A stretch of DNA of 48,670 nucleotides. Origin: a virus. A program made the position numbers and the translations under genes. Location: IMG/VR virus record IMGVR_UViG_3300036859_000405, positions 1 through 48,670 of that record; one strand, 5' to 3'. Below are positions 11,896 to 48,670 of this stretch, one piece after another (position 1 is the stretch's first letter; every line of letters starts with the position of its first letter). The notes under the pieces are model-generated. The model saw nothing but the letters and a program-made list of their open reading frames with translations. It had not been told where the DNA came from and searched no databases.

Positions 11896-12050
11896 TTGGG
11901 CGGCCCGGCTTTCTTCTGTGTCTCATAACTCAGTCTGGCTTGGTGCAAAAACAGCAGATCGCTCACCAAGCTCCGCCCGTAGATCGCCGCGAAAGCCACA
12001 AGCATCCCGGCGAGCATCAGCGCGAGGGTGCGGCCCAGGCGTGTCAGCAT
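11892..12050 (-). CDS. Small single-pass membrane protein
   Basis: A 52-residue protein with a basic N-terminus (MLTRLGRT), a hydrophobic helix at about residues 8-24 ([17 protein letters not shown]) and a polar C-terminal tail rich in Lys and Gln. The stop overlaps the start of the collagen-like gene (ATGA), supporting real translation. It starts 48 bases from the divergent FkbM methyltransferase. Function is unknown; it may help assembly or export of the collagen-like partner. Confidence 0.6.
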
Positions 12051-12098
12051 GTGTCTGATTGCCTCGCCTCTCTCCGATGTGGTAGCGTCACTGTTCCC

Positions 12099-12974
12099 AT
12101 GACCCTCCTACACCGCACCAAACAGTTCTATTGGGCCTCTCGCAATCCGCGCCCACTTCTGCGGCGCGCGATCTATCACGTCTATCGCCCGCACCTCGTC
12201 ACCCGATCCGGCATTACCTATCGGCTGCACGATCGTCGGGATTGGGCCAGCGAATCGATCTATGTCTATGGCTCCCATGCCCGTTGGGTGACCGCCGTCA
12301 TGACCGCGGCCCTGCCCTCTGTCCAGAGCATCATTGACGTCGGGGCCAATATCGGCTGCGTCACCCTCCCGATTGCGAAAGCCTTTGCCGGCCCGGTCCT
12401 GAGCTTGGAACCCGCCCGTTCGAGCTTTACCTTGTTGCAGGACAACCTTCGCTTGAACGGCCTGACGAATGTCGATGCGCGTTGTCTCGCCGTGAGCGAT
12501 CGGAGCGGGTCGGCGCGGCTCTCGCATAGTCCCACCAATAGCGGGGACCATCGCTTGGCCGTCGGCCCGAATGAACACCGCACCGAATCGGAACTCGTGA
12601 ACGTGGTCACCTTGGACAGCCTGATTACCTCGCGATTGCCACCGCCCCACCTTCTCAAGATTGACGTCCAAGGCCACGAATTGCATGTGCTGCGGGGTGC
12701 CTCTCACCTGTTGTCTCAGCCCTGTCTTGTGATCGCGGAGTGCTGGCCCTATGGCTTGCGGATTGCCGGTTCGTCGATGGCGGACTTGATCGATCTGATC
12801 CGCGCTGTGGGCTTGACCGCCTACGTCATCAGCGAACACAGGCTGTCGCTGGAACCCGCCTCCCTGGACACTCTCACGACTCGCCTCTCGCCCGATCGCG
12901 AAGACGATTCCTGCGATCTGGTCCTGACGAATCGGCCGCTGAGGGCAATCGGGCTGCACCATCTTTTGCTTTAG
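12099..12974 (+). CDS. FkbM-family SAM-dependent methyltransferase
   Basis: A 291-residue class I methyltransferase of the FkbM type (PF05050), which O-methylates sugars and other small hydroxyl groups. The SAM-binding motif I is IIDVGANIGCVTL at residues 78-90, the second acidic motif is LSLEPARSSF near 101-110, and the family motif LKIDVQGHE is at 186-194. The frame is open further upstream to 11871, but that part is antisense to the collagen-like gene and lacks the family pattern, so ATG 12099 is preferred; no strong ribosome site is seen. It is the only large plus-strand gene in the structural block and ends in a 4-base convergent overlap, the look of an inserted accessory gene (moron). 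Confidence 0.88.
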   Translation: MTLLHRTKQFYWASRNPRPLLRRAIYHVYRPHLVTRSGITYRLHDRRDWASESIYVYGSHARWVTAVMTAALPSVQSIIDVGANIGCVTLPIAKAFAGPVLSLEPARSSFTLLQDNLRLNGLTNVDARCLAVSDRSGSARLSHSPTNSGDHRLAVGPNEHRTESELVNVVTLDSLITSRLPPPHLLKIDVQGHELHVLRGASHLLSQPCLVIAECWPYGLRIAGSSMADLIDLIRAVGLTAYVISEHRLSLEPASLDTLTTRLSPDREDDSCDLVLTNRPLRAIGLHHLLL

Positions 12975-19675: not shown

Positions 19676-19933
19676 CTAGCCGACGTTTTCATCCGTCGGA
19701 TCGACCGCCGCGGTCATGTTTTCCGGACCCGGGGCGGTGTTACTGACACTGGTGCCCGCCGCATCAAGGTTGGTGATGTGGCGTTCGTTATTTGACGTGG
19801 AGTTGACATACCCCCCGCCGTAGACTTCCTGATTGCTCGCGGTGTCGCCGGCGATGGTCAGCTCACGCCCCGTGGCCGAGCCCGCCGCAATGTTGTCATA
19901 CGCCGTCCGACGCGCGCGCACTGTCACTGCCAT
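19676..19933 (-). CDS. Small late protein, polar
   Basis: An 85-residue polar protein rich in Ser, Thr, Asn and Gly, with a TVRARRTAYDNIAAGSA start. ATG 19933 was chosen because a strong GAAGGAGAAGG ribosome site precedes it; the upstream extension lacks one. No domain is recognised. Its strong translation signal suggests an abundant protein, perhaps a minor capsid or decoration component. Confidence 0.6.
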   Translation of the reverse strand: MAVTVRARRTAYDNIAAGSATGRELTIAGDTASNQEVYGGGYVNSTSNNERHITNLDAAGTSVSNTAPGPENMTAAVDPTDENVG

Positions 19934-20744
19934 AGGCCTTCTCCTTCTCACACACCACAGCGTAGTGATATCCGTAACGCATCCGAGCCCGGAGTCGCCA
20001 GCCGGCGAGTTTCACCGCCTGATCGAAACTGGGCGCACTCCAATACCCGGGATGATCGAGTTTCCAGTCGTAGCTCGCGGTATGTCGACCGATCGCCCAC
20101 AACCGCGCATCCACCACGTCTAGATACGCCCAGCCGCCCGGCACCGTGATCGATCGCAGCCACCGCAACACCCCCAGCGGATCGCGGAGGTGATCCATGG
20201 TCTGCGTACACACGATCAGATCTTGCGTGGGCACGGCGGGATACGCTTCAATCGGCGCGCAGATCGTCGCGAAGCCCCGCGCCGCGGCGAGGGCGAGTTC
20301 GGCAGCGTGCGGATCGATGACGGTCATGGTCGTCACCGGCCAAACGGCACAGATCCCCTCGGTGACCGCCCCGTGACTCCCGCCCACATCACACGCGGCC
20401 TTCAGAGGATAGGGGACGGTGCGTTGCGTAATCGCCACGTTGTGGCCAATCCACTGCCCCCGCTTTTGGCCACCCATCGAACACCGCCCATTGCCGACCG
20501 CTTGGACTAAAGGCCGATAGGCATGGTTGTAAAACGCGGTGTACCCATCCGCCGAGAGCTGTGGGTTGAGATACGCAAAGCCGCACCGACACACGCTGGT
20601 CCCCACCTGATACCCATACCGATCCCGCGCGGGGATGCTCGGATTCGGCTGCGCACACACCGGACACTGGAGGATCGGCACCTGCGGATACGCTGCGTAG
20701 TCAAAGGCGGGCGCGACCCGGTCCACGACCGTCGCCGTGCTCAT
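19896..20744 (-). CDS. Class I SAM methyltransferase with N-terminal zinc-binding motif
   Basis: A 282-residue enzyme. The N-terminal CPVC (about 27-30) and CRC (about 52-54) resemble the zinc-binding module of sugar C-methyltransferases. The SAM-binding loop is ACDVGGSHGAVTEGI near 115-129, followed by TVIDPHAAELALAAARGFAT and a QTMDHLRDPLGVLRWL helix, as in Methyltransf_23-like enzymes. Substrate is unknown; the zinc module and the neighbouring glycosyltransferase-like gene suggest a nucleotide sugar or glycan. It overlaps that gene by four bases (ATGA). Confidence 0.8.
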   Translation of the reverse strand: MSTATVVDRVAPAFDYAAYPQVPILQCPVCAQPNPSIPARDRYGYQVGTSVCRCGFAYLNPQLSADGYTAFYNHAYRPLVQAVGNGRCSMGGQKRGQWIGHNVAITQRTVPYPLKAACDVGGSHGAVTEGICAVWPVTTMTVIDPHAAELALAAARGFATICAPIEAYPAVPTQDLIVCTQTMDHLRDPLGVLRWLRSITVPGGWAYLDVVDARLWAIGRHTASYDWKLDHPGYWSAPSFDQAVKLAGWRLRARMRYGYHYAVVCEKEKAYGSDSARASDGV

Positions 20745-21607
20745 ACGGCCCCCGCCTGTTTCGCCGCGAGCAGCGCCTCGGCCACCGCATGAATCGGCAA
20801 CGCGTCCCGGCGTTCCAGGGCGGGCGGCACCCCAATATCCCGCAGCGGCGGCGCATCGGGCGCATCGGCTGGCGTCAAGACCAGCACCTTTTTCCCGCTC
20901 TGGACCACAATCTTTTCGGACGGCCCGATCCCATAACTTTTGTCGCGCTTGCCCCCCGGATGACTTTCATAGCCGTAGAGCAAGGCTGGCCGATTCAACA
21001 AATCGCACCCGGGCGGGAGCACGATCTGGACGCCGCGCCCCTCGGCCACCCCCAGCCAGTATTCACAACACCCCCGTTGGCGGAAATATTCAGCATCCCC
21101 GGTGTAATCGGCCCCGTAGATCCCAATGTGGGTCACACCTTCCATGAGCGCGAGCGCAATCATGTAGGCGACCGTATTGGTCATGTAGCCGCGGGGAAAT
21201 TCGGTGATCATCGTTCCGAAGGGATACTTGATACTTGCCGGCACATCCGGATAGCGCTCCTGCATCATGATCGGGATGTGGCTTTGCTGCAGCCACCGAT
21301 GGTAGGACGTGTCCCACCACTTCTTCGTCGCGCTCCGCCACAGGTCGGGCGGGTGTAAATCAAAGAGCAAATCCGGTTCACGCTGACAGTGCATCCGACA
21401 CGAGGCATGCGCCCAGAGCTCCCACGTCGGATCGCGCCAGGGCGCGTACTGAATCGTTTGACAGCCCCCCAGGAGGCCGATTTTGCGCAAGCGGCCCAAG
21501 CCGGCCAAGAGAGGCCGACGGGGCACCGGTGCGCGCCATTGCTTGTGTGACTCATCGGCGAGTTTGTGCGGCCGTTGGGCCTTCACCTGAATCGGACGTG
21601 TCCCCAC
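20741..21607 (-). CDS. Putative glycosyltransferase-like (MAF/DUF115 or GT42-related) protein
   Basis: A 288-residue protein. A TNTVAYMIALALMEGVTHIG segment and the following YGADY acidic motif, with CCEYWLGVAEGRGVQI, resemble the core shared by DUF115/MptE-like and MAF proteins and by GT42 sialyltransferases, which use CMP-nonulosonates. A family of this shape is common in phage structural regions and has no proven activity. GTG 21607 is preferred over TTG 21625 because a GGAGGGGA site stands at good spacing. Position next to a methyltransferase and the presence of a NeuABC cassette make a sugar-transfer role attractive but unproven. Confidence 0.5.
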   Translation of the reverse strand: MGTRPIQVKAQRPHKLADESHKQWRAPVPRRPLLAGLGRLRKIGLLGGCQTIQYAPWRDPTWELWAHASCRMHCQREPDLLFDLHPPDLWRSATKKWWDTSYHRWLQQSHIPIMMQERYPDVPASIKYPFGTMITEFPRGYMTNTVAYMIALALMEGVTHIGIYGADYTGDAEYFRQRGCCEYWLGVAEGRGVQIVLPPGCDLLNRPALLYGYESHPGGKRDKSYGIGPSEKIVVQSGKKVLVLTPADAPDAPPLRDIGVPPALERRDALPIHAVAEALLAAKQAGAV

Positions 21608-21629
21608 CCGCTCCCCTCCCGACAACGGA

Positions 21630-21668: not shown

Positions 21669-22307
21669 CTACGACTGCGACGTATTCAGATCCACCGCAA
21701 CGCCCGTCACATACGGATAATTCATGAACACCGCATGGGTGTTCCCGATATGGGAGGTCGTGGCGGGTTGCGCCGAGTTCGGCCCCGAGGCGTTCGAGGT
21801 CGAAACGGCCGAGTTCTCCGGCGTGGACGTGTGATCCGACTGCGACAGGATCGCCAGCCACATCCCGTAGATGTAGTTCTGCGCGATCGTGGTGGTCGGC
21901 AGGATCAAGGACAAGGTCCCCGAGGGCGTCCCGACGGAGGTTTGCGGAATCAGGCCGTACGCCACGGTCTGATCCGACGCCGTACCGTCACTGGCTTCCC
22001 CGGTCTGTACGGCGTTGTGCAGGCCATAGACCTGCACCCAGCCGCCATTGACCGAGGTCGCGTCCGTCATCGCCACGCCCACCCGTTCGGGGAGGAGGGC
22101 GGTGCCGAGCAGCGGATGCGCGCGGTAGATGTTGGAAATCCCCACGAGCACGCCCGGAAACACGGCGGCATCGAAATGCACGAACAGATACTCGTTCCCG
22201 TCGGTGTCCCGGGCTTTGTCGCCGGGCTTGTGCGGAAACGGGGTGGTGTAGACCTGCGAGGTCGGGCCCGCAGCCGCGATTGCGCCAGGGCCAACTAGCT
22301 GTGGCAT
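21669..22307 (-). CDS. Probable capsid decoration or head protein
   Basis: A 212-residue beta-rich protein starting 12 bases after the major capsid stop in transcription order, with a GGGAGG ribosome site. Segments such as ARDTDGNEYLFVHFDAAVFP and NGGWVQVYGLHNA show alternating strands; the C-terminus is rich in Ser/Thr/Asn. No named family is recognised. Position straight upstream of, and size similar to, head decoration or stabilising proteins make that the leading guess. Confidence 0.6.
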   Translation of the reverse strand: MPQLVGPGAIAAAGPTSQVYTTPFPHKPGDKARDTDGNEYLFVHFDAAVFPGVLVGISNIYRAHPLLGTALLPERVGVAMTDATSVNGGWVQVYGLHNAVQTGEASDGTASDQTVAYGLIPQTSVGTPSGTLSLILPTTTIAQNYIYGMWLAILSQSDHTSTPENSAVSTSNASGPNSAQPATTSHIGNTHAVFMNYPYVTGVAVDLNTSQS

Positions 22308-22319
22308 GGAGAGCCTCCC

Positions 22320-23288
22320 TTACGTAATCGCCGTCACGCATCCGAGCATCCTCAGATTCGTGGCGATCAGGTTGGCGATGGCGTGAACCTTGAACACCTT
22401 CGCGGTTTGATTGGCGGGTTCCACCGACGGATGCGCCTTGTACCAGTGACCCTTGGCATAGGCGAGCTTCAGGAACTTCGGATTGCAGAAGTACATGATC
22501 CCCGTCGGACAGTCGTTGTCATAACTGAGCATCATCCCTTTGAATTTCAGCGTCTCGTTCTTGAACCCGCCTTCGCCCGAAGACTTGTCGGTGAACCGCT
22601 CGTTGGCGAGCAAGAGCCCCTCAAAGCCTTCAAACACGGTGCGGGTTGTGGCGCCGAATTTGGGATGCTGCCCGGCATAACCGTTGGAACAGAGGTTGTA
22701 GATGCTCCGCATGGTAGCGCGCAGGTTGTCGAAGGCCGAGGTGGTCTTCGCGCCCGAGGTCTGCTGACTGCGCCAGAAGGAGAAGTTGGCGCTGTTGATC
22801 CCGCCCCGCGTCCCCGTGGTGGGATCGGTGGCGATGATGTGCCGAAGACCGCCGATTTCCTTGTTGGTCGATCCGGTGCCATCCGAAAACAGCGCCGTGT
22901 TGATCGTCGAATCCAGCGAGGAGCGGAGGTTTTTCAGTTTGCCATCGAGCAGATCGAATTTCTTCGCGCTGCCCTGATTAATGGCTGATTCCAGTTCAGA
23001 CTGCACGACCGTGCCGGCAATTTCCTTCCAGGAAAATTCGGCGCGATCGAACACATCCTGCCGGGTCGTGCTGATCGTTTCGAGATCGGAGTACCATGCA
23101 ACGGTTTGGTTGGTCGCATACTCCAGGCTCGCCGTGATGACGTCGCCGCCATCCACGGACATGAAGCCGTCGCCGTCTTTGAGGCGATTCAATAACCAGT
23201 AATCCTCGAAGATGTTGTCTTCGGGCTTGTCATTGACGAGCGCGTTCCAACTGGCCGCTATCGTGACTCCATCATTGGGAGCGGGCAT
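22320..23288 (-). CDS. Major capsid protein (HK97-fold type)
   Basis: A 322-residue protein in the usual capsid position after scaffold. The core ITASLEYATNQTVAWYSDLE, then RQDVFDRAEFSWKEIAGTVV, is the E-loop/P-domain pattern of phage capsid proteins that are not cleaved. LSYDNDCPTGIMYFCNPKFL near 265-285 is the typical A-domain strand before the C-terminal end. It has no N-terminal delta domain; a separate scaffold gene lies upstream. It forms the icosahedral shell. Confidence 0.85.
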   Translation of the reverse strand: MPAPNDGVTIAASWNALVNDKPEDNIFEDYWLLNRLKDGDGFMSVDGGDVITASLEYATNQTVAWYSDLETISTTRQDVFDRAEFSWKEIAGTVVQSELESAINQGSAKKFDLLDGKLKNLRSSLDSTINTALFSDGTGSTNKEIGGLRHIIATDPTTGTRGGINSANFSFWRSQQTSGAKTTSAFDNLRATMRSIYNLCSNGYAGQHPKFGATTRTVFEGFEGLLLANERFTDKSSGEGGFKNETLKFKGMMLSYDNDCPTGIMYFCNPKFLKLAYAKGHWYKAHPSVEPANQTAKVFKVHAIANLIATNLRMLGCVTAIT

Positions 23289-25269: not shown

Positions 25270-27299
25270 TGGACTTTCGGCCCAGGCCGGTCGCCGGACG
25301 CCTCGGCCCCGTGTTTACTGAGCGGACTGGCTTTATCGGCCAAGCCGCCATGCTGCGGCGTTTTCTTCGTTGCGCCTTTCTCGCTGGTCTCGGTCGGGAC
25401 CGCCATCTGCAGCAAGGTCGCATTCATCGCCCCCGCTTGCGCTTCCTGAATCGAGGCGGGACTAATCTGCACCCCGGATTGTGCGAGGACTTCCAACACG
25501 ATCGGGAACTGCGGCATCAAGGGATTCAAGTCTTCGCCTTTGAAGCTGTAGCCCAAACTCGGCTCCGGCTTTTCTTCCGGCATCGACTCGGCGACAAACT
25601 TCAGCGGGTCTTCGCCTTTCAATTCGAACACCTTCCGCCCAATCGCCGCCCCATTCATCAATGGGTCTTTGCGGAAGTATTCATAGATCTTCAGCCAGTC
25701 CGCCAACTCGCGCGCCGCATCGATGCGGATCTGACTATTCGGCCGCGCCGTAAATTTCGGCCGCGGATCGCCGGCCTGGAGAATCTGATCCCGCCACTGC
25801 AAATAGGCCAGCGCCGCCTCGGGACCGACGAGTTCGGCGACTTGATTTGGATCGGTACAGAACCGCAAGGCGAGGGCCGCGACTTTATCGACGCCTTTGA
25901 GGTACCACCGGACCACGCGTTTCCGTTCAGCGTCGAGTCGGACTTGCAAGGCGTCATCGATCTTGGAAATTTCCGTGGCCGTCCGATCGTCTTCTTCCGT
26001 GACGCCCGCTTGATTCGAGCCAAGGCCAAGCGTTTTCTGGATGTCGCGCTCGATGTAGTCGTTAGCCAGATAGGTCTGTCGTGACTGCTGCGCCTTCCCG
26101 AATTCGCGGAAGTTGTTATCGATGCCCCCGATAAACGCCGCACTCGGCAACGGAATCAGCGACCCCGTCATCGCGCCTTCAATTTTCGTGACGGCCTCGG
26201 GCGGAATCGATTCGACGTTGTAGCCGAATTTCAACTTGTTCGCGTCCCGCTCCTGCACCATCTGCGTGCGGAACAGACACAACTCTTTCACCAACGGGCG
26301 GGTCATCTGCGAATCGGAGGGCACATACGCGCTGTCGGGCACATCCCGCAGCGTCAAGACGTGAATCGGATTGCCAATCACGGAATCGGCGCGCAAGCGG
26401 CCATTGGGCAAGAGCGTTTGATAGGGCGAGGCCCAGAGCGGATCGGGCTCGCCCATCGGCCCCGTTTTGTCGGCGAAGGTGTCGAGGCCGTCGATGATCA
26501 CGTGGCGCCGATAGACCAATGGATGGATCACATCGTCATCAAAGAGCGCCGCTTGATACCACACCAACACGCCATCGACATAGGCCAGCCCCGGCGTCTC
26601 GTTCGGCTTGGTGCCGGATTCCAACACCTTGTCATCCGCGGTGGTGGTGCCGGTAAAATCGGGCGGCAAGGTAAAGAGCCGCGACGCCGAGCGGAACGGA
26701 ATCCGGAAGCGCATCCCCAACCACGGCGCTTTGTCGTAATCGGTATCGGTGAAATCGGCCGGCACGAGAAACTTTTTCGAGGCGATCCGATCCCAGAACC
26801 ACGCTTCGTGAATCGGGACGGGAATCGGCCGATTGAGGCCCAGAATGTTGCCGGGCTGTGGCGTGTTGTCCACTTCGGACAACGTTGGCTGATACCCAAT
26901 GACGGTCGGGCCAAACCCGGCGGTACAGGTGCAGTCCTTGATCGCTTTCAGGATCGTCGGGAGCACATCCATCCGATCCGGCCCGAGGAGCGCATTGAGC
27001 AACGCGCGAAACGCGAGCACGCCAGGCAAGGTCGGATCGAAGCCGACACCGGGACTGAGTTGCAATTCGGGCGTTTCGAAAAAGAGTTGCGCGCCTTTTT
27101 GTTCGACTTGATAGAAATCGACGTTCACGTTGACGTAGTCTGAGGACGGCGCTTGCGTTAAGGGCGTGCCAGTGTAGTAATTCAAATTCTCTTGCCACTT
27201 CGACCAATGGCTCTCCCCCATCGTCGCCGCGCGATCGACTTCGCCGCGCCAGAAGGCCAAGCCGTACGGTTCGTTAGCTGGCATACCGGACACTTTCAC
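25266..27299 (-). CDS. Portal protein
   Basis: A 677-residue protein, the ring at the capsid vertex through which DNA enters and leaves. The N-terminal FWRGEVDRAATMGESHWSKW helix and the NYYTG motif, the RDQILQAGDPRPKFTARPNS segment and the helical wing and stem at about 380-480 fit podovirus- and siphovirus-type portals. The long C-terminal tail, 560-677, is polar and Gln/Pro-rich. GTG 27299 and ATG 27284 are both possible starts. It follows the large terminase with a 26-base overlap, the standard gene order. Confidence 0.88.
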   Translation of the reverse strand: MKVSGMPANEPYGLAFWRGEVDRAATMGESHWSKWQENLNYYTGTPLTQAPSSDYVNVNVDFYQVEQKGAQLFFETPELQLSPGVGFDPTLPGVLAFRALLNALLGPDRMDVLPTILKAIKDCTCTAGFGPTVIGYQPTLSEVDNTPQPGNILGLNRPIPVPIHEAWFWDRIASKKFLVPADFTDTDYDKAPWLGMRFRIPFRSASRLFTLPPDFTGTTTADDKVLESGTKPNETPGLAYVDGVLVWYQAALFDDDVIHPLVYRRHVIIDGLDTFADKTGPMGEPDPLWASPYQTLLPNGRLRADSVIGNPIHVLTLRDVPDSAYVPSDSQMTRPLVKELCLFRTQMVQERDANKLKFGYNVESIPPEAVTKIEGAMTGSLIPLPSAAFIGGIDNNFREFGKAQQSRQTYLANDYIERDIQKTLGLGSNQAGVTEEDDRTATEISKIDDALQVRLDAERKRVVRWYLKGVDKVAALALRFCTDPNQVAELVGPEAALAYLQWRDQILQAGDPRPKFTARPNSQIRIDAARELADWLKIYEYFRKDPLMNGAAIGRKVFELKGEDPLKFVAESMPEEKPEPSLGYSFKGEDLNPLMPQFPIVLEVLAQSGVQISPASIQEAQAGAMNATLLQMAVPTETSEKGATKKTPQHGGLADKASPLSKHGAEASGDRPGPKVQ

Positions 27300-28848
27300 T
27301 GCCTAACCGAACGTTGGGTTTCTGATGCACGCTCATGCGCAAATGCCCCATCGTGCCTTCGGGAAACACTTGGGCCTGCTTGGCAAAGACCGCTGGAGAC
27401 GGCCGACTCATCGCCCCATAGCGCCACGCATCCAAGGCGTGATCGTCCATCTTCGTATCCACATCGTCCGGATCGTGTTTGTCCGAGCGAGCATTCGGGA
27501 TCGAGCGGATCAGGTAGCGGCAGTCGGGATGGACGACACACCATGGCTTGCCGTCCGGCGCATCCCGCAGGAGCGCATGGCAGCGGCCCCAGCCGTTCAC
27601 CCGGTCGTTGTCCGCCTTGGTGATTGGGATGCCGTAGAAGCCTAAGGTCTCCCCAATCGACTGCCCAGTAAACTGCGGCGTGTTGTGCGTGGCCCCGGTT
27701 TTGTTGAAGATCGCCGGGTCACCCGCCGTATAGCTCACTTTGGAGAGTCCGAGCTCCGCGTCCTTGGCGTGGATCCGGGTCGCCACTTCCTGCTCGTCCA
27801 AGCCCTGAAATTTGAGTTCTCCCCGCAAATACAGACGTCCGTCAGGCAGGATGGCCCACCACAAGGCGCAGCCTGGCTGATTGCGACCCCAGTCCAACGA
27901 GCGAAACCACCGCACACCATCAGGGAGGCCCAAATCGTCCACGTGATGCGACTCCCGCCACTGCGAAAAAAACTGCCCTGCGAACACGCGCCAATCACCA
28001 TGCCGGAGTTGTTCGTAGCGCCACTTGGGAAGCAGGGCAAGAGTAGTGAGGTAGTCGGGATCAATGTACGGGTTGTCATCGAGGGTCGCCGGGATGTACG
28101 CGAAGTTCGCCGGGTCATAGACCGCCTTTAAGGCTGGATACAACTCAAAATCCGGGGCGTGATCCACAAAGACATCCAGCAAGGCATTGCTGCTCGGCCC
28201 GCCCGGATTGCTCGGGACCAGAAACTTCGCTCCGCCCACCGCTCGGACCGCTGGCTTATTGGATCGGGCGCGCGTGCTCAGCTCGAGCAAGGGCACCGTC
28301 CCGTCGTCTTTCACCGGATACTGGCTCCCCTCATCGGGCACAATCGCGTCATACTCCGTAGACAAGTAGTTCTGCACCGCCTCGGCGTCTTCCATGTGCC
28401 CACACTGAATCAGCGACCCGTTGGGAAACCGCAACACGCCGTCCGACTTAATCCACTCGGCCCCAATCAACCGGCTTTCGGTTTCCATCCGCCGGATGTG
28501 GGTCTGCTGGAGCTGTTTGTAGTTCTCCCGCAAGAGCAACGCTTCATAGCCCGGAATCGTCAAACACTGCTTGTAAAGCCACCACCGACACCCGGTCGAT
28601 TTCCCCGGCCCCGCCGCCCCGCCCCACAAGATATTGCGGGCCGGACATTCCCACATGACGACCTGCTTGGGCACAGGCACAAACAAGCACTTTTTTTCCT
28701 TGCCTTTGAGCGTGACGACCACCGCCTGTGCCACCTGTCGCCGCCAACAGGCTTCTTCCGGACACAGCCAGCAGGTCAGCCCCGCCACTTCCGACTGCAC
28801 CAGCCCCGCTTGACACCAGCAACATTTCGCAGTCGGATGGACCGTCAT
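27274..28848 (-). CDS. Terminase large subunit with N-terminal zinc ribbon
   Basis: A 524-residue DNA-packaging ATPase and nuclease. Walker A is GGAAGPGKST at 76-85, Walker B is YDAIVPDE at 166-173, and the RuvC-like nuclease has acidic residues in SLDWGRNQPG (Asp319), RGELKF (Glu344), AGDPAI (Asp377) and DDHALDAW (468-475). Before the ATPase domain, residues 9-29 carry CC-x2-C and C-x2-C clusters, a probable zinc ribbon not found in standard large terminases. It is partnered with the small subunit at 29044. It drives headful or cos packaging; the mode cannot be told from the sequence. Confidence 0.93.
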   Translation of the reverse strand: MTVHPTAKCCWCQAGLVQSEVAGLTCWLCPEEACWRRQVAQAVVVTLKGKEKKCLFVPVPKQVVMWECPARNILWGGAAGPGKSTGCRWWLYKQCLTIPGYEALLLRENYKQLQQTHIRRMETESRLIGAEWIKSDGVLRFPNGSLIQCGHMEDAEAVQNYLSTEYDAIVPDEGSQYPVKDDGTVPLLELSTRARSNKPAVRAVGGAKFLVPSNPGGPSSNALLDVFVDHAPDFELYPALKAVYDPANFAYIPATLDDNPYIDPDYLTTLALLPKWRYEQLRHGDWRVFAGQFFSQWRESHHVDDLGLPDGVRWFRSLDWGRNQPGCALWWAILPDGRLYLRGELKFQGLDEQEVATRIHAKDAELGLSKVSYTAGDPAIFNKTGATHNTPQFTGQSIGETLGFYGIPITKADNDRVNGWGRCHALLRDAPDGKPWCVVHPDCRYLIRSIPNARSDKHDPDDVDTKMDDHALDAWRYGAMSRPSPAVFAKQAQVFPEGTMGHLRMSVHQKPNVRLGSESVRYAS

Positions 28849-29063
28849 TCCCAGGGGACCGTCCCATTGCGCTCATCCCCTCGTTCCCCATGCCCATGGG
28901 CATGCGGTCGCGCGCCATATTCGTGAATGACCGCCTTGGGCCCGAACCGCGCCACCAGCCGCGCAAGCTGCCCCTTGTAATAGGCCCGCAGATCGGCCAG
29001 GCCTGACGTCGGTTCGCCATTCGATCGCCGTTCCTGCGCCTTCCTATCGCTCTGTGGAGGCAT
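28845..29063 (-). CDS. Small protein between the terminase subunits
   Basis: A 72-residue polar, His-rich protein (HEYGARPHAHGHGERGDERN near the C-terminus, with a central YYKGQLARLVARFGPKAVIH helix). ATG 29063 is taken as the start; a longer frame exists to 29141 within the small-terminase gene. It overlaps that gene by 20 bases and the large terminase by four. No family is recognised. Confidence 0.5.
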   Translation of the reverse strand: MPPQSDRKAQERRSNGEPTSGLADLRAYYKGQLARLVARFGPKAVIHEYGARPHAHGHGERGDERNGTVPWE

Positions 29064-29826
29064 CCTGCACCAGAACCTGAACAGCCTTTTTTCTTGTTTT
29101 GGGGAGGCGCCCTTTACGCTGTGTTGGTCTGCGCTGACCACCTGTCCTCGCCACCCCCGGCTGGGGCCCCCCGCTGGATTCGCCCGCAGGAATCAGCCGA
29201 TCGCTCTCGCCAGCCAGCATTGGTACAGCGCTTGGCTGGTTAACATAATTGCTTATTATTGGACTCGAAGTAATATCGAATGTGTTACCAGTCAACAACT
29301 TAGCGCTGTCCTCGAGTAGAGAATGAGGGGCGAAAGTCTGGGGCGAAACCATGATACCGACCTTGACCTGCTCGACCGTGACGCCAATCTGCACCGCGAC
29401 CTGGGCTGTAAAGTCTGGGCGATTACGGCCGTAAAGCTCTGGCCATAAACGCTCTAGAGTGGTCATATACGCAACCCAGTCCTGTTTACCCCGCAGGACG
29501 CGCTGTAATAACTCTCGCTGCCAATAGGCGTAGGCTCTTTTTAGAACATCAAAGAACCGTGCTTCGAGCGACGGTTTGCCCTCTTCATAATCGGCTTCAC
29601 CAGCCTTGAGCCAGTTCCGACGTGTCTGAGGCGTAATCCCAATCAGGTCACACAAGGCATCACGACCAAGTGGTGCAAGCTCAAGCTCTGTAATGACTTG
29701 CTCGATGAGGTCTGCGGTTAACTTAGTAGGGCGGCCACCTTGAATACCGCTGAGATAGTGCCGCAGGGAGAGCGTGGGCAGGTAAGCATCCGCGATGGCT
29801 TGCGCTTGGTGCGCGAGACTGGACAT
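29044..29826 (-). CDS. Terminase small subunit-like protein
   Basis: A 260-residue protein. Residues 28-75 hold a helix-turn-helix-like region (PTKLTADLIEQVITELELAP, then DALCDLIGITPQTRRNWLKA), as in small terminases that recognise the packaging site. Residues 76-125 are helical (oligomerisation) and the last 60 residues are basic and disordered (TGGQRRPTQRKGRLPKTRKK). It lies two genes upstream of the large terminase. The local base composition is lower in GC than the neighbours (for example 29230-29330), suggesting a separate origin. Confidence 0.7.
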   Translation of the reverse strand: MSSLAHQAQAIADAYLPTLSLRHYLSGIQGGRPTKLTADLIEQVITELELAPLGRDALCDLIGITPQTRRNWLKAGEADYEEGKPSLEARFFDVLKRAYAYWQRELLQRVLRGKQDWVAYMTTLERLWPELYGRNRPDFTAQVAVQIGVTVEQVKVGIMVSPQTFAPHSLLEDSAKLLTGNTFDITSSPIISNYVNQPSAVPMLAGESDRLIPAGESSGGPQPGVARTGGQRRPTQRKGRLPKTRKKAVQVLVQDASTER

Positions 29827-29920: not shown

Positions 29921-30262
29921 CTAGGATGCTACTCCAGGTAGGTTTACCGCTTGCTTGTCTGTCTCCCATGCCTTGACAAGCTGTTCAGCGAATGGGGCCC
30001 ATGTGTCGTGCTTCGCCCATGCGGCCCTCGTGGTGACGAGCTTCCACGGCCCATCGCTGTTGAAGAAATACACCGTGCTGTTGGGGCAATAGTCGCTCAA
30101 CACAACAGGGATACCCTTATAGGTGAGCGGGACGAGCCCGAGCGACGCCTTATGGGTCGTCCAAGCCTCAGCGACCACGCGTGGCGCAACCGTGAGTCCG
30201 ACTGCGGCTGTCGCGATGCGTCTTAAGAAGCTGCGGCGATTCACCGTGGTCCTCCCTGCCAC
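29921..30262 (-). CDS. Small protein with twin-arginine (Tat) signal
   Basis: A 113-residue protein. Residues 8-15 are NRRSFLRR, a good match to the Tat consensus, followed by a moderately hydrophobic stretch (IATAAVGLTVAP) and VVA, a plausible cleavage site near 31. The mature part has YKGIPVVLSDYCPNSTVYFF, a segment that looks like the end strand of phage capsid-type or similar beta proteins. Tat substrates cross the membrane folded. Why a phage gene between a helix-turn-helix gene and the small terminase would use this route is unclear. Confidence 0.6.
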   Translation of the reverse strand: MAGRTTVNRRSFLRRIATAAVGLTVAPRVVAEAWTTHKASLGLVPLTYKGIPVVLSDYCPNSTVYFFNSDGPWKLVTTRAAWAKHDTWAPFAEQLVKAWETDKQAVNLPGVAS

Positions 30263-30438
30263 GGCGGCGTATTCTTCACCCGCACCAACGCCCGCTTGCC
30301 GGCAATCCGCACCCGCCCGAGTTCAATCAATCCCGCCTCGGCCCACTTCTTCACGGTGCGGGGATCCACATCATAGAGTTCGGCATAGGCTTTCAGGGTC
30401 ACCCACTGGCGCACCCCGGTATTACGCCTGTCGCTCAC
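30241..30438 (-). CDS. Small helix-turn-helix (MerR/excisionase-like) protein
   Basis: A 65-residue protein with a winged-helix DNA-binding pattern: LKAYAELYDVDPRTVKKWAE as the helix-turn-helix and LIELGRVRIAGKRALVRVKN as the wing. It resembles the AlpA/Xis-type phage DNA-binding proteins. It lies directly downstream of neuA. A second copy of its last 25 codons lies at 33352-33429, so it brackets the sialic acid cassette. Confidence 0.75.
   Translation of the reverse strand: MSDRRNTGVRQWVTLKAYAELYDVDPRTVKKWAEAGLIELGRVRIAGKRALVRVKNTPPWQGGPR
30259..30300. repeat. 42-bp direct repeat, copy 1 (end of HTH gene)
   Basis: Identical over 42 bases to 33361-33402, with similarity continuing for about 27 more bases. 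It encodes the GKRALVRVKNTPPW end of the helix-turn-helix protein. With copy 2 it bounds a segment of about 3.1 kb that holds the neu genes. Confidence 0.9.
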
Positions 30439-31084
30439 GCAGTCTCCGTTCGGCCTCGCGCCAGTCGGCCTCGGTATCTAAGGGACAGGTCTCGCTCGGG
30501 TCAATAATGAGTGCGCGTGCTGGCGACCCGTACATATCGCCACACGCCACTGTTTTGCGCCAAAACGCATAGACCGTCCCGTCGCGCTTGTAGCCTTTCT
30601 CCATTACCTGTCGTCGTGACGGAAACTCCAAGCTCCAGCCATGCGACATCTTCAACTCTTCGCCCCGTGCTTCAAGCAGTTCGTCAGGGCTCACAGTTTC
30701 CACCACGCTCACCACCGAATCCCATTCGGGGGTCAACAGAGCTAGGGCCTGCTGCAAGTGCTTCGCCTGCCTCAGGGGTTGCGTGGGTTGCAGCAAGAGA
30801 ATCTTCTGATCGGGTGGACCGGGAATCTGCTCGAGCACATGCTGCACAACCGCAATCATGGGCGTGTCGTCTTGGGCGAGCTTAAGGGGACGCTGTAGCC
30901 ACTGCGCCTGAATGTACACGGGCGGTTCACAATCAGACGAAATAACAGGTAGGTGCCCCGCATCCGCCGAAACAATCGCCGCGCGGTGCACTAAGCAACC
31001 ACCTCCAGCGAAGGGCTTCCAATTTTTCCCTGGAATGCCCTTACTCCCCGACCGCGCGGGAATAATCGCCAGCACATTCACCAT
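30422..31084 (-). CDS. neuA: CMP-N-acylneuraminate cytidylyltransferase (NeuA-like)
   Basis: A 220-residue enzyme that activates a nonulosonic acid with CTP to give the CMP-sugar. Family signatures are all present: AIIPARSGSKGIPGKNWKPF at residues 6-25, the LLLQPTQPLR loop near 98-107, DGTVYAFWRK near 167-176 and LDTEADW near 201-207. The length fits a complete single-domain synthetase. It overlaps the small Cys-rich gene by seven bases and lies downstream of neuB and neuC on the same strand, so the three are probably co-transcribed. It may act on Neu5Ac or on the bacterial relatives legionaminic or pseudaminic acid. Confidence 0.9.
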   Translation of the reverse strand: MVNVLAIIPARSGSKGIPGKNWKPFAGGGCLVHRAAIVSADAGHLPVISSDCEPPVYIQAQWLQRPLKLAQDDTPMIAVVQHVLEQIPGPPDQKILLLQPTQPLRQAKHLQQALALLTPEWDSVVSVVETVSPDELLEARGEELKMSHGWSLEFPSRRQVMEKGYKRDGTVYAFWRKTVACGDMYGSPARALIIDPSETCPLDTEADWREAERRLRERQA

Positions 31085-31287
31085 CGCCCCCAGCCCCTCG
31101 GCGACTCATCAGGATCATAGAAGGGCATATACGGCGACGGGCGCACACACCGCCGCTCATTCGTATTATCCGGTGGGCACGACGCGCGACAGTCGCGACA
31201 GGTGCCAGTACGCGCATAATCAAACGTCAGCGCGTTCCAGTCGCCCGTACAACACTGGCACCGCTCGTATTCGCGTGGATCTGACAT
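31078..31287 (-). CDS. Small cysteine-rich protein inside the neu cassette
   Basis: A 69-residue protein with CQCC at about 10-13, CRDC at about 30-33 and further Cys near 37 and 47, probably zinc-binding. A strong GGAGGTGAT ribosome site stands at the right distance from ATG 31287. It overlaps the 3' end of neuC by 61 bases and the start of neuA by seven. No family is recognised; it may simply be a phage gene caught in the cassette. Confidence 0.6.
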   Translation of the reverse strand: MSDPREYERCQCCTGDWNALTFDYARTGTCRDCRASCPPDNTNERRCVRPSPYMPFYDPDESPRGWGRW

Positions 31288-32369
31288 ATCACCTCCGTTA
31301 TCTGTTCTCCACTCGTGCCTGATCCATATAACCGACTGCTCGGATACGGCCCATGCGCGATCTGTGTCTGGATCGCCGTACGAATGTGCAATGCGTGGTA
31401 CGGCACATCAATCACATTAGGTCCGCGCTCCCGCCCCTGTTGCCGCGTCCCAATATTCACGACCGGCGTCCCAAGAAAGCTCGCTTCTCTGATGCCAGCA
31501 CTGCTATTCCCGACCAGACAATCCGCCTGCCACAAGAGCCGCAAGAACCGCAATGGTGGCAGGTTTCGCACCGTATGCACCTTCTGTTGCCAGCCGCGTA
31601 ACGCTTTACTCGCGATCCCCGCGCCGGCATCTTGCCCCGGCCAGAGGCAGAGGACTTGCCGTCCCGTTATTGACGCGGCCAGCACCGTCATGTCCAAGTG
31701 ATACCCCGCCTGATCCGCTTCATCAGTCACCGGATGTTGCAACACCACCACAAAGGGCTGTGTTAGATCAATCGGCGCGCCGGCCCCGCCAAATTCGTCA
31801 GCGGTGATGGGCGGTTCACTCAGGGCTTGCTTGGCGAGATCAATCGAGGGACAGCCCGTATGCCAGATCCGGTCCCAATCGCCCGTCAAGCCATACACCC
31901 GATATTTCGCCCGCTCGGTACACACACAGTGATAGTCGGCTAACTGCGTAATCGCATCTCTGACACGATCGTCAATGCTTCCTGTGCGCTCTCCCCCCTG
32001 CAGGTGCACGAGGGGCCGGTGCAAGTACGCTGATGCCTGAGCCGCGCCCAACACCTCGTGTCGGTCGGCACATACACACACGGCGTCTGGCTGCAATCGA
32101 TGAAGCACCCCGGCCAATTCTTGCGCAAGCGCGCCAGTCTCCTTCGCGGATGTTTGTAAATTTTCCCCTTCGTGGACCGTCCAACACTCCGCCGCAATGG
32201 CGTACCCTTGCGCTTTGACAACCTCCACCACCTTTCCATACCGCTCTAATAAGGCACTGGCACACGCGATAATCTGCAGTTCCACCTCTGGCCGCGCTTG
32301 CAAGGCCCGACACACCGGCTCGAGCTTCGCCCAACTCGGGCGGGCAGTGAGGATCACGGCAACCTTCAT
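31227..32369 (-). CDS. neuC: UDP-N-acetylglucosamine 2-epimerase, hydrolysing (NeuC-like)
   Basis: A 380-residue enzyme that converts UDP-GlcNAc to ManNAc plus UDP (or the 2,4-diacetamido analogue in legionaminic acid synthesis). The start VAVILTARPSWAKLEPVCRA, the ADRHEVLGAA segment near 99-108, HLQGGERTGSIDDRVRDAIT near 122-141 and GNSSAGIREASFLGTPVVNI near 290-309 are the family blocks. ATG 32369 overlaps the neuB stop (ATGA). The GDR of the usual GDRxE motif is ADR here. The final 35 residues run past the usual domain end into the next gene. Confidence 0.88.
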   Translation of the reverse strand: MKVAVILTARPSWAKLEPVCRALQARPEVELQIIACASALLERYGKVVEVVKAQGYAIAAECWTVHEGENLQTSAKETGALAQELAGVLHRLQPDAVCVCADRHEVLGAAQASAYLHRPLVHLQGGERTGSIDDRVRDAITQLADYHCVCTERAKYRVYGLTGDWDRIWHTGCPSIDLAKQALSEPPITADEFGGAGAPIDLTQPFVVVLQHPVTDEADQAGYHLDMTVLAASITGRQVLCLWPGQDAGAGIASKALRGWQQKVHTVRNLPPLRFLRLLWQADCLVGNSSAGIREASFLGTPVVNIGTRQQGRERGPNVIDVPYHALHIRTAIQTQIAHGPYPSSRLYGSGTSGEQITEVICQIHANTSGASVVRATGTR

Positions 32370-33070
32370 GCGCTCCACCGCTCGCGGAACTGTTGGCTGA
32401 CGCCCGTCGTCATTGTCTGGACTTGATCGGCCCAGTCGCGAATCTCGCGAAATTGCTCCGGCGTTTTATCCCAGCTCATTTGCCGACTCTTCCCCGGTAA
32501 ACAGAAATGCGCTTCGATGATCCGTGCGCCTCGACTGATCATGTGTTTGCAGACAGTCGTCCCGATGGTGTGATCGCTCCAGCCATCCAATAAGGACGCA
32601 GCATACACGGCTTCAATCGGCGTGGGATAGAGCGGAATCGCCGCCAGATGCTTGTCCATCTGCCCCGCCCAAGGCCCCACCTGCCGACCCCACGCCCATG
32701 ATTTATAGAAGCGCACCGACATCATATCGTTCGGGAGAACCCACACGGATTGACTGCTCGCCACTTTGATGCAGCTTTGGTTAAGCCGCAGCAGCATCAA
32801 TAACGCGTCCACATCAAACGGCGTCGAGAGAAATTGCACCCGCTGCCGCTGACACGCCTTGATGATCCGCTCATGCGCCGCTTCATCTAAATGCGCCTGC
32901 TTCAACCACGCGGCCTGCGGATCGCGCGGATTCAATCTGGCGAGGGTATAGCTTTGGATCTTCACGGTGTGCGCCCCATTGTCGGCGGCGGCTTTCACCA
33001 TGTCACAGGCCAGATCCACATCGCCCCCATGACTGGTCGCCAGTTCGGCAATCAGTTCAACGCTCATCAT
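32366..33070 (-). CDS. neuB: N-acetylneuraminate synthase-like, TIM barrel only (NeuB-like)
   Basis: A 234-residue enzyme of the sialic/legionaminic/pseudaminic acid synthase family, which condenses a mannosamine with phosphoenolpyruvate. Family signatures: IAELATSHGGD at 7-17, VKIQ near 36-39, FLSTPFD near 77-83, IKVASSQ near 99-105, GWSDHT near 162-167 and IIEAHF near 184-189; the last two carry the metal-binding histidines. The usual STGm loop in the middle is poorly kept. The protein stops after the TIM barrel and lacks the C-terminal SAF (antifreeze-like) domain, about 100 residues, that caps the active site of the partner subunit in ordinary NeuB. Confidence 0.85.
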   Translation of the reverse strand: MMSVELIAELATSHGGDVDLACDMVKAAADNGAHTVKIQSYTLARLNPRDPQAAWLKQAHLDEAAHERIIKACQRQRVQFLSTPFDVDALLMLLRLNQSCIKVASSQSVWVLPNDMMSVRFYKSWAWGRQVGPWAGQMDKHLAAIPLYPTPIEAVYAASLLDGWSDHTIGTTVCKHMISRGARIIEAHFCLPGKSRQMSWDKTPEQFREIRDWADQVQTMTTGVSQQFRERWSA

Positions 33071-35577: not shown

Positions 35578-35764
35578 ACCGCTCCCGTTGCCGCCACATG
35601 CGCTGCGCGATCCGATTCGCTCGTCGGCACCGTTCACAGCTACAGCCATACGCATAGCCTGAGGTCGTCCCATGCCAGAGACGCCCTTTCGGGGAGGTGG
35701 GTGGCAGAATCTTGGTCCGCGTGCGAGATCGCGCGTTATACGCCAAGAGGGCGGCGGTGCTCAT
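35564..35764 (-). CDS. Small basic Cys-containing protein
   Basis: A 66-residue protein with GYAYGCSCERCRRANRIAQR near 36-55, a short C-x-C-x2-C motif followed by a basic helix. The same pattern occurs in small phage proteins of unknown role. The start overlaps the cytosine methyltransferase stop (ATGA). Its first nine codons recur almost exactly at 37624-37649, upstream of the other methyltransferase. Confidence 0.6.
   Translation of the reverse strand: MSTAALLAYNARSRTRTKILPPTSPKGRLWHGTTSGYAYGCSCERCRRANRIAQRMWRQRERYEGV
35738..35763. repeat. 26-bp direct repeat, copy 1
   Basis: Matches 37624-37649 with a single mismatch. It encodes the STAALLAY start of the 66-residue protein. Confidence 0.85.
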
Positions 35765-36327
35765 GGATTCGCCTCAAAGAAAGCTCGTGCGAAGGCTGCT
35801 GAAGTTTGCGCTCGTTGCCGACGCTGTGACCCGGACAGCATCGACGTGCGATCGCGGGACCGCTTCGGCCGATGCTCGGGATATGCCGGCCGCACATACC
35901 GATAACTCGGGCGGCGAAAGTCGCCCCAGAGCCAGATCCGTTTCGTCCAGGGATCGCCAAAGTCGCAGGGATCACACGCGAACACCGGCTTGCCGAGATA
36001 GGTCTGCAGCTTCCCGATTGGATTCTCCAGCGCCCACCACAGGGGTTTTGTCGCCACCACGATCCGCAAGCACGCGTCCACGATCGATAAAGCCTCTCGC
36101 ATCTCTTCAGGCGTCCGCTTCCACCTGGCGCCCACCCGTGCAAACATCGTACAGGGCGGCGCCGCCAGAATCCCATGCACCGCCGAGGGCGGGACATAGA
36201 GCCGCACATCTTCCCGAACGGCATCGGGCAGTTCGCAATTCGGATCCACGACCACAACGCGGTAGCCGGCCGCGCGATACGGCTGTGACCAAGCGCCAGT
36301 CCCGCCGCATAAATCCAGAATCAACAC
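35761..36327 (-). CDS. C5-cytosine DNA methyltransferase-like protein
   Basis: A 188-residue protein. Motif I is DLCGGTGAW at 5-13, motif IV is APPCT with the catalytic Cys59, and motif VI is ENPIGK at 101-106 (ENP where classical enzymes have ENV). FGDPWTKRIWLWG near 123-135 is close to motif VIII. It is shorter than bacterial C5 methyltransferases and has no obvious target-recognition domain; compact phage relatives of this type are known. Start is GTG 36327 with the third leader element upstream. It may protect phage DNA from restriction. Confidence 0.8.
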   Translation of the reverse strand: MLILDLCGGTGAWSQPYRAAGYRVVVVDPNCELPDAVREDVRLYVPPSAVHGILAAPPCTMFARVGARWKRTPEEMREALSIVDACLRIVVATKPLWWALENPIGKLQTYLGKPVFACDPCDFGDPWTKRIWLWGDFRRPSYRYVRPAYPEHRPKRSRDRTSMLSGSQRRQRAQTSAAFARAFFEANP

Positions 36328-36371: not shown

Positions 36372-36647
36372 TTATTGCACAATGCCAAACAGCGCTAAGG
36401 CGTCCGCGGTGTTTCTGACAATACAGACGGGCCAGCCATCGCGCCGCGTCTCCACTTGCGCCGGCGTCAACGTGCCCTTGTCCGCCTTCACCTCGAGCAG
36501 GCGCACGCCTTTGCTGGGATGAAAACACACCAGATCGACAAAGCCTTTCTCGGACACTTTCTGCACGCGGACGCCCATGCGTTTCAGCGCGTCCACGATC
36601 GGCGCTTCGTTCGCATCCCGCTTTCTAACTTGACCAACGCGCCTCAT
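36372..36647 (-). CDS. VRR-NUC-like nuclease (PD-(D/E)XK)
   Basis: A 91-residue protein. VDLVCFHPSKGVRLLEVKAD near 37-56 holds the metal-binding Asp and the E-x-K pair of the PD-(D/E)XK/VRR-NUC core, with LTPAQVETRRDGWPVCIVRN after it. ATG 36647 overlaps the methyltransferase stop (ATGA), so the longer upstream frame is a shadow. Stand-alone VRR-NUC proteins in phages act on branched DNA. The direct coupling to a DNA methyltransferase recalls a restriction-modification pair, but similar nucleases without a partner are common. Confidence 0.75.
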   Translation of the reverse strand: MRRVGQVRKRDANEAPIVDALKRMGVRVQKVSEKGFVDLVCFHPSKGVRLLEVKADKGTLTPAQVETRRDGWPVCIVRNTADALALFGIVQ

Positions 36648-37618
36648 GCGCTGATTTCCTGTGCAAATAATGGGGCCACATTCCCGATCCGCTTCCGCGC
36701 CAGCTCGACGTACGACGGGTTGAGTTCGATGCCGATAAAGTTCCGCTGCAAGCGAATCGCTACGGCGCCCGTTGTGCCAGAGCCGCAGAACGGATCGAGA
36801 ATCAAATCGCCTTCCTGACTGCCAGCGAGAATGCACGGTTCGACAAGGGCTTCGGGGAACGTCGCGAAGTGGGCCTCTGCATAGGGCTGCGTGGGGATCG
36901 TCCACACGCTGCGCTTATTCCGACCGCCTTCTAGTAGATGCGCGCTCGCTCCGGCTTGGTGATTCGTGATGCCAGCATCACCACGTACGTCGCTGAGTTT
37001 ATCGTTCAAGGGTCGAGTCATACCCTTAGCGGCTTCACACCTCACACGTTCCTCTACATAGTCCGAGAACGGTTCCTTAATGGCATCGGCGTTGTAGTAG
37101 TACTTCGCTGATTTCGCCAACAGGAACAGGTACTCATGCGCTTTCGTCGGCCGATCCGTCACAGATTCCGGCATGGGATTGGGCTTGCTCCAGATGATGT
37201 CGCAGCGGAGATACCAGCCCGCATCCTGCAAGGCGAGCGCAACTCGAGCCGGCACCATACACAAGTCTTTCGATTTCAACTCCGTATCCCGCCGGCGGCG
37301 TCCTATTTCAGCCCCGTGCAAGGCTGAGACGTGTTTGCCTCCGGTGGTACCACCCCATTTGTCATCAGACGCGTATGAATCGCCCAAATTCAACCACACC
37401 ACACCATCCGCGCGCAGCACGTCACGCATCACAGAAAAGACGTTCACCACGGCTCCGATATAGTCAGCCAAACGATCCTCGCAACCTATCTGCCCCTCCA
37501 CCCCGTAATCCCGCAACCCGAAATATGGCGGACTCGTCACCACACATTGCACGGACGCATCCGGCAGCTCCCGAAGCTTCTCCCGCACATCCCCGACTAA
37601 GATTTGCCAGGTGCTCAT
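36644..37618 (-). CDS. DNA N6-adenine/N4-cytosine methyltransferase
   Basis: A 324-residue enzyme of the N6_N4_Mtase family (PF01555), beta class: the catalytic motif IV TSPPYFG at 28-34 precedes motif I DPFCGSGTTGAV at 275-286. TSPPY may mean N4-cytosine or N6-adenine specificity. The start ATG 37618 was chosen by motif position; the upstream frame is a shadow. No restriction partner is certain, though a VRR-NUC-like nuclease follows directly. It may protect phage DNA or regulate genes. Confidence 0.9.
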   Translation of the reverse strand: MSTWQILVGDVREKLRELPDASVQCVVTSPPYFGLRDYGVEGQIGCEDRLADYIGAVVNVFSVMRDVLRADGVVWLNLGDSYASDDKWGGTTGGKHVSALHGAEIGRRRRDTELKSKDLCMVPARVALALQDAGWYLRCDIIWSKPNPMPESVTDRPTKAHEYLFLLAKSAKYYYNADAIKEPFSDYVEERVRCEAAKGMTRPLNDKLSDVRGDAGITNHQAGASAHLLEGGRNKRSVWTIPTQPYAEAHFATFPEALVEPCILAGSQEGDLILDPFCGSGTTGAVAIRLQRNFIGIELNPSYVELARKRIGNVAPLFAQEISA

Positions 37619-37650
37619 GCGTGATACGCCAAGAGGGCAGCGGTGCTCAC
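37615..37650 (-). CDS. Possible 11-residue leader peptide
   Basis: An 11-codon open frame (GTG start, STAALLAYHA). Its start overlaps the stop of the 77-residue gene (GTGA) and its stop overlaps the ATG of the methyltransferase (ATGA). It derives from the start of the 66-residue gene at 35564 (26-base repeat, one mismatch). It would link translation of the two genes. Confidence 0.4.
   Translation of the reverse strand: MSTAALLAYHA
37624..37649. repeat. 26-bp direct repeat, copy 2
   Basis: One mismatch from 35738-35763. It forms most of the short leader frame before the N6/N4 methyltransferase. Confidence 0.85.
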
Positions 37651-37880
37651 TTCTCCCACCCACACCGACACACCAAGGCTCGGGACCAGTAGTGACACGC
37701 GGCACACTTGGTATGTTTCCGATAATGCCGATTTTCGAGATTCTTGATCGGGGGCAACGTACCGATCCGTTTGGTGGGGATCGGCTCACTCACCAACAGA
37801 TCCCGATCTTGCTGTTGATGACAACCATCCCAGGACACCGTAAAGGCTGAGAGGTCTTGCACTTGTCGCAGCAGATCCAT
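37647..37880 (-). CDS. Small zinc-binding phage protein
   Basis: A 77-residue protein with CAAC near 60-63 and CRC near 72-74 in the C-terminal third, flanked by a basic stretch (NLENRHYRKHTKC). ATG 37880 overlaps the stop of the loader-like gene (TGATG). It may be a small zinc ribbon protein of the replication region; no family is recognised. Confidence 0.5.
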   Translation of the reverse strand: MDLLRQVQDLSAFTVSWDGCHQQQDRDLLVSEPIPTKRIGTLPPIKNLENRHYRKHTKCAACHYWSRALVCRCGWEK

Positions 37881-48543: not shown

Positions 48544-48670
48544 TGATCCTCACGCGGCTTCATCGCGATCAGGTCCGCGCTCGTCGGCGTGCTGTTCCCA
48601 GGATCCCCGTCCAAACCGATGCACGGCTTGATAGGCGGCCCAACTGATAAAGCCGGGGACGCCGCACGCT
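48544..48670. repeat. Terminal direct repeat, right copy (partial DUF1353-like gene)
   Basis: Exact second copy of bases 1-127. It contains the 3' end of the DUF1353-like gene on the minus strand (stop at 48550), whose 5' part is found only at the left end, at 128-417. Joining the ends places this gene directly downstream of the signal-peptide protein gene at 402-1067 and upstream of the FN3-like secreted protein at 48125-48496. Confidence 0.95.

Follow-up and report, generated by a model that had tools for sequence, protein, structure and literature searches.

The window analysed here is the IMG/VR virus record IMGVR_UViG_3300036859_000405, a stretch of 48,670 bases taken whole, which bears a 127-bp direct terminal repeat at its ends and is therefore probably a complete genome. 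It carries one cluster of genes resembling NeuB, NeuC and NeuA (together NeuBCA) and, beside its capsid gene, a further gene whose product is predicted to share the fold of the transferases CstII and Maf. We consider it probable that these genes form a phage-owned pathway, which makes a nonulosonate (NulO) activated with cytidine monophosphate (CMP) and puts it on a protein of the virion head. The NulO biosynthetic pathway itself is very likely real, and virion glycosylation is its best-supported and, on balance, its probable purpose.

In the proposed scheme, NeuC would hydrolyse and epimerise uridine diphosphate N-acetylglucosamine (UDP-GlcNAc), or a related UDP-sugar, to N-acetylmannosamine (ManNAc) or an analogue, NeuB would join this with phosphoenolpyruvate into a nine-carbon acid, and NeuA would combine the acid with cytidine triphosphate to give CMP-NulO. 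The CstII/Maf-fold protein would then pass the sugar from CMP to Ser/Thr of a head protein, most likely a Ser/Thr-rich protein of 212 amino acids (aa). Fold and gene order suggest that the transfer is to the virion. Direct observation covers the genes, their families or predicted folds, the catalytic residues kept in NeuB and NeuC, and gene order and co-occurrence; we infer that the enzymes are active, which sugar is made, which protein accepts it and what it is for, namely to shield or alter the surface of the virion.

The NeuB, NeuC and NeuA genes

A sequence-only reading of this DNA had described NeuB-, NeuC- and NeuA-like genes in an overlapping minus-strand cluster at 30422-33070, and the description held: the open reading frames (ORFs) lie at that place and on that strand, with family matches far beyond chance.

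32366-33070, minus strand: NeuB-like compact NulO synthase, 234 aa, without the antifreeze-like (SAF) domain (Pfam NeuB, AlphaFold2 (AF2) model, structural match 6ncs, core residues)
31227-32369, minus strand: NeuC-like hydrolysing UDP-GlcNAc 2-epimerase, 380 aa from the ATG at 32369, GTG at 32378 possible (TIGR03568, human GNE match, catalytic residues)
31078-31287, minus strand: 69-aa ORF bridging NeuC and NeuA (overlap with both genes)
30422-31084, minus strand: NeuA-like CMP-NulO synthetase, 220 aa (Pfam CTP_transf_3, match to N. meningitidis synthetase of CMP-N-acetylneuraminic acid (CMP-Neu5Ac))

The assignment of NeuC to a NulO pathway is well supported at the sequence level. It scores 297.6 bits against TIGR03568 (E 1.1e-88), above the curated cut-off of 235.9, and its best solved relative is human GNE (199 bits, 1.1e-57), ahead of entries for the hydrolysing diacetylbacillosamine epimerase (127 bits). 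Residues D105, R106, H125, E130, H215, S292, S293, E298 and R312 are invariant in all covering phage homologues and align to GNE D112, R113, H132, E137, H220, S301, S302, E307 and R321, which we take to be catalytic and UDP-binding residues; the equivalent of E134 is Gln, at a position that varies in bacterial NeuCs too. Phylogeny, one of the checks suggested by the sequence-only reading, separated the 19 phage NeuCs as one clade (support 100/100) from the bacterial NeuCs sampled; the maximum-likelihood tree has 40 rows, and the stem of the clade measures 1.31 changes per column. The bacterial rows come from a single phylum, that of the Arthrobacter genome L006, so that a closer bacterial relative may exist elsewhere.

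NeuB matches Pfam NeuB (PF03102) with 83.4 bits (cut-off 22.1; 2.2e-23) and scores 92.8 bits against the N-acetylneuraminate synthase equivalog TIGR03569, whose cut-off of 399.65 it does not reach. Its 234 aa compare with open frames of about 340-400 in most bacterial loci fetched. The AF2 model, built with eight phage sequences, has a mean predicted local distance difference test score (pLDDT) of 87 and eight strands in a complete beta-8 barrel, with reduced helices after strands 4 and 5. Its best structural match is the Leptospira NeuB 6ncs (Z 27.9, root-mean-square deviation 2.1 over 220 residues, 22% identity), ahead of N. meningitidis NeuB (Z about 26), PseI (23) and other TIM-barrel aldol synthases (at most 17). 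Of the active-site residues, listed partly after PMC6795526, every covering phage row retains the equivalents of E25, K53, Q55, K129, S154, Y186, S213, D214, H215, E234 and H236, and D247 is not kept in the phage NeuB. At their C-terminal end the phage proteins carry an F-x-x-R-W-like motif, whose Arg and Trp occur in 18 of 20 phage rows and are absent from all bacterial rows. A frameshift or decay, suspected since about 45 mid-protein residues were unmatched by NeuB profiles, was ruled out because relatives at 51-61% identity are equally compact and the predicted barrel is complete. The role of NeuB in the pathway appears well supported by family, predicted fold and most core residues.

NeuA, to judge by its relatives, is a divergent CMP-NulO synthetase. 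It matches Pfam CTP_transf_3 (PF02348) with 33.9 bits (gathering cut-off 22.6; 3.7e-08), its best solved relative is the N. meningitidis CMP-Neu5Ac synthetase (8.1e-17), and the best NCBIfam model, PseF (TIGR03584), gives 71.6 bits and is not reached at its cut-off of 205.7. D209 and D211 of the N. meningitidis CMP-sialate synthetase are presumably its metal-binding Asp pair, and the D211 equivalent is present in 20 of 20 phage rows. The profile searches that had been recommended therefore placed NeuC above a curated cut-off and NeuB and NeuA above Pfam thresholds, with the latter two under the NCBIfam equivalog cut-offs.

Given those two scores, the missing SAF domain of NeuB and the missing Asp of NeuA, the sugar may be of either Neu5Ac or legionaminic type. 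The proposal of a three-gene NulO pathway is well supported for NeuC and, by family, fold and most core residues, for NeuB and NeuA. A pseudaminic product is unlikely because the pseudaminic acid route uses PseG and not a NeuC-type epimerase.

The NeuB and NeuC genes are joined by an ATGA stop/start overlap, which makes the ATG at 32369, rather than the GTG at 32378, the most likely NeuC start. Given this overlap and that of the 69-aa ORF (without a Pfam or PHROG match) with both NeuC and NeuA, the four frames look like one translationally coupled unit. Promoter and terminator scans gave nothing clearly above shuffles. A 65-aa helix-turn-helix protein (30241-30438, minus strand), kept in contigs L007 and L009, overlaps the NeuA end and is matched weakly by families of terminase small subunits and of Cox-like excisionases.

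The predicted transferase and its neighbours

The protein that would use the CMP-NulO is encoded among the head genes, outside the coordinates covered by the sequence-only reading.

20741-21625, minus strand: predicted CstII/Maf-fold NulO (sialyl)transferase, 294 aa, TTG start uncertain (AF2 model, Foldseek, VIA-align, co-occurrence with NeuC)
22320-23288, minus strand: major capsid protein (phrog_9953, 2.5e-46)
21669-22307, minus strand: Ser/Thr-rich protein, 212 aa, candidate glycosylation acceptor, between the capsid gene and the transferase
19896-20744, minus strand: S-adenosylmethionine (SAM) methyltransferase (Methyltransf_23, 1.9e-12; 4-bp overlap with the transferase gene)

The 294-aa protein itself gave no Pfam match, and its motif order was seen by eye to resemble that of CstII. 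A Foldseek search against all of PDB returned CstII entries first (6.2e-5, probability 1.00), with sialyltransferases making up nearly all of the top 17, and in VIA-align of the model the highest score went to the Maf structure 5mu5 (Z 10.7), while CstII and Cst-I reached about 9-9.5. The aligned part of 5mu5 is limited to residues 269-500 of 632, and the full Maf architecture is absent from the phage protein. Y174 and E179-Y180 are conserved where CstII Tyr156 and Tyr162 would fall (by eye only), and no equivalent of the catalytic His188 was spotted. The family has no sequence match in PDB, and its profiles gave no Pfam match to E 5 (8 members) and none relevant to 0.1 (56 members).

Of 69 distinct relatives, at least 42 have the Ser/Thr-rich gene immediately 5' of the transferase gene, and the capsid gene, where one was recognised, precedes the Ser/Thr-rich gene. 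Ser and Thr account for 22% of the whole protein and 14% of the window's predicted proteome, and for a mean of 31% (26 sequences) over the 45 residues before a conserved NYPYV motif. For two divergent members, the matches are to families of tail and virion structural proteins. By position and composition, this protein would be the likeliest acceptor. Further, a homologue of the methyltransferase at 19896-20744 sits between NeuC and NeuA in L053, L054 and L055.

Other methyltransferases are encoded elsewhere in the window. An FkbM-family member (11871-12974, plus strand; TIGR01444, 2.8e-31) lies within the minus-strand structural block and may methylate a sugar. A DNA N6/N4 methyltransferase is found at 36644-37789 (minus strand; Pfam 2.5e-54), and a second, short methyltransferase-like ORF at 35761-36327.

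Occurrence in related phages and genome layout

A NeuC profile scan of IMG/VR yielded 19 contigs, and every one that extends far enough has NeuB and NeuA on either side of NeuC. Each of the 10 NeuC contigs that measure 16.9 kb or more encodes the transferase, as do two shorter ones. The other seven, fragments between 5.2 and 16.7 kb long, stop before its expected place: within the portal gene, a short way beyond it, or immediately beyond the Ser/Thr-rich gene. Because the NeuC-bearing phages share ancestry, these co-occurrences are not independent events. NeuBCA lies upstream of the terminase in the window's group and between the portal and capsid genes in L056, L058, L059 and L075; in L053, L054 and L055 no terminase related to that of the window was recognised. 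Many viral contigs share the succession of capsid gene, Ser/Thr-rich protein and transferase, and about 20 diverged phage sequences retain the compact NeuB, the gene order and the catalytic residues. That the pathway is old and phage-owned is the best reading. The rarity of a whole pathway in phages, also put forward by the sequence-only reading, was confirmed: among 50,697 phage records, a NeuC query found one match and a bacterial-type NeuB query three. An isolate-phage collection searched with the window NeuB and NeuA gave no matches, and relatives of the capsid and terminase among isolate phages are distant.

A strict two-way link between the transferase and NeuC was rejected, as the transferase often occurs without NeuC. 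A few other transferase-bearing records have a NeuA-like match only; such a pairing, with no NeuC or NeuB match in the stretch examined, is seen in L123, L137 and L139, where another CMP-sugar is perhaps involved. In the isolate Microcystis phage Mvi-Yong1342-1 (PP496355.1, L042:34781-35584), a homologue annotated as 'type 11 methyltransferase' adjoins the terminase small subunit, and no NeuC or NeuA was found in the record. Two copies of the transferase family are several kb apart in L114, L115, L118, L121 and L129 and adjacent in L056, L084, L101 and L106; paired copies possibly serve different acceptors or sugars. Beside the transferase in L019, the product of 14588-15565 resembles an exostosin-type glycosyltransferase by eye, with no NCBIfam match.

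The placement of NeuBCA between early genes and the terminase, as originally described, agrees with the layout, since the terminase genes come next after the cluster.

29044-29826, minus strand: terminase small subunit (TerS-like), after NeuBCA (phrog_4102, 6.8e-14)
27274-28848, minus strand: terminase large subunit (TerL), after NeuBCA (phrog_2, 1.2e-28)
1-127: direct terminal repeat, left copy (identical to 48544-48670)
48544-48670: direct terminal repeat, right copy (identical to 1-127)

Alternative explanations and comparison with known systems

Several findings weigh against a working pathway that decorates the virion. The equivalent of NeuA D209 is Pro in the window and variable in the phages, and at the N184 position of NeuB both the window and its near relatives have Pro. 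NeuB and its phage relatives end before the SAF domain, whose Arg314 is essential in meningococcal NeuB (PMC6795526), so NeuB activity is not guaranteed; that the Arg of the F-x-x-R-W motif stands in for Arg314 is speculation. The AF2 model of the transferase (8 homologues) is of moderate confidence (mean pLDDT 57, core at about 50-205 mostly 70-86), and profiles of 8 and 56 members gave no sequence match to GT42 or Maf. In VIA-align, thiamine pyrophosphokinase (Z 9.9) and HPPK (9.7) score similarly to the transferases, so that the fold alone is no proof of the reaction; unlike these Z values, Foldseek E-values and gene context do set the transferases apart from both enzymes. The choice of acceptor, made from adjacency and composition only, is a guess. 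Among further transferase-bearing records of at least 20 kb, NeuC is present in 6 of 25 and absent from 19.

Three purposes had been suggested by the sequence-only reading. Virion glycosylation is favoured because the CstII/Maf-fold protein by the capsid gene co-occurs with the pathway and NeuBCA lies inside the head cluster in some relatives; nothing found points specifically to a modified host surface or to imitation of eukaryotic glycans. With CMP-NulO made as proposed, it is unlikely that the sugar goes onto the host envelope (lipopolysaccharide or capsule), blocking superinfection or changing the surface. Such a role would suit the fold match to CstII, which acts on bacterial lipooligosaccharide, and the position of the window's Neu genes outside the head block, adjoining early genes. 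The transferase, however, lies within the head genes, as does NeuBCA in other phages, which suggests late expression, and the window proteins scanned included no recognisable integrase, leaving lysogenic conversion without support.

A tentative idea about the product, compatible with transfer to the virion, is that the enzymes make another CMP-sugar, of legionaminic type or a new NulO, from a host-supplied UDP-sugar. Substrate-side positions of NeuB have changed (Pro in place of N184, D247 lost), neither NeuB nor NeuA reaches any equivalog cut-off, and a methyltransferase accompanies the module in some phages; against this, NeuC scores higher with GNE than with the diacetylbacillosamine epimerase, and no genes for UDP-diacetylbacillosamine synthesis were recognised among the scanned window proteins. 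It is highly improbable that the genes are recent host-derived passengers, or decaying, without a phage role: the short NeuB with its reduced helices and no SAF domain might suggest so, but its compact form, the gene order and the catalytic residues persist across the diverged phages, the phage NeuCs form their own long-stemmed clade and the frames are intact.

On a more specific form of the virion explanation we are evenly divided: a new CstII/Maf-fold branch, unrecognised by sequence, would O-glycosylate a capsid-associated protein, and NeuBCA would be an add-on that frees the transferase from the host supply of CMP-NulO or CMP-3-deoxy-D-manno-octulosonic acid (CMP-Kdo). Phage virion glycosylation is known from few cases. 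If the virion explanation is true, this virus family would carry donor synthesis, transferase and probable acceptor together, with a minimal SAF-less NulO synthase and a new transferase family of predicted CstII/Maf fold (at least 69 distinct phage sequences, no Pfam family), and why a bacterial virus would wear a negatively charged nine-carbon sugar would become testable.

Compared with bacterial NeuBCA (N. meningitidis, E. coli K1), the phage genes would cover the same three steps, with the NeuC cut-off passed and the NeuB barrel and core residues and the NeuA family shared. They differ in a NeuB without SAF, with reduced helices and an F-x-x-R-W-like end, in a NeuA without one metal-binding Asp and in a NeuC clade of their own. 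The crystallised Leptospira borgpetersenii NeuB (PDB 6ncs) is also short, at 285-290 residues, and the phage NeuB is shorter still.

Among phages, neuB and neuA have been counted in viral metagenomes (PMC3877843), and phage DLP4 has an isolated NeuB-like/sialyltransferase-like annotation (PMC6469090). Azotobacter phage TayeBlu resembles the window in having a sialyltransferase-annotated gene, a putative alpha-2,3/2,8-sialyltransferase suggested to act with host exopolysaccharide; the accessible part of that report does not mention NeuBCA (PMC12772287). Mycobacteriophages Che8 and Rita encode glycosyltransferases and bear glycans on capsid proteins, with no phage-made NulO donor pathway described in the accessible portion of the source (PMC11256854). 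The literature searched, which includes few subscription journals, yielded no description of a phage that combines a NulO pathway with a transferase and virion gene cluster, nor of a virion sugar of sialic-acid type made by a phage.

Among PDB entries, CstII (GT42) best matches the predicted fold of the phage transferase, without a sequence-profile match, and the acceptor of CstII is lipooligosaccharide whereas that of the phage enzyme is presumably a protein. Maf (5mu5) is like the phage transferase in its central part and has flanking parts that the phage protein lacks, and its substrate is flagellin. Maf attaches NulO directly to Ser/Thr, and some Mafs also take CMP-Neu5Ac and CMP-Kdo (PMC11339370).

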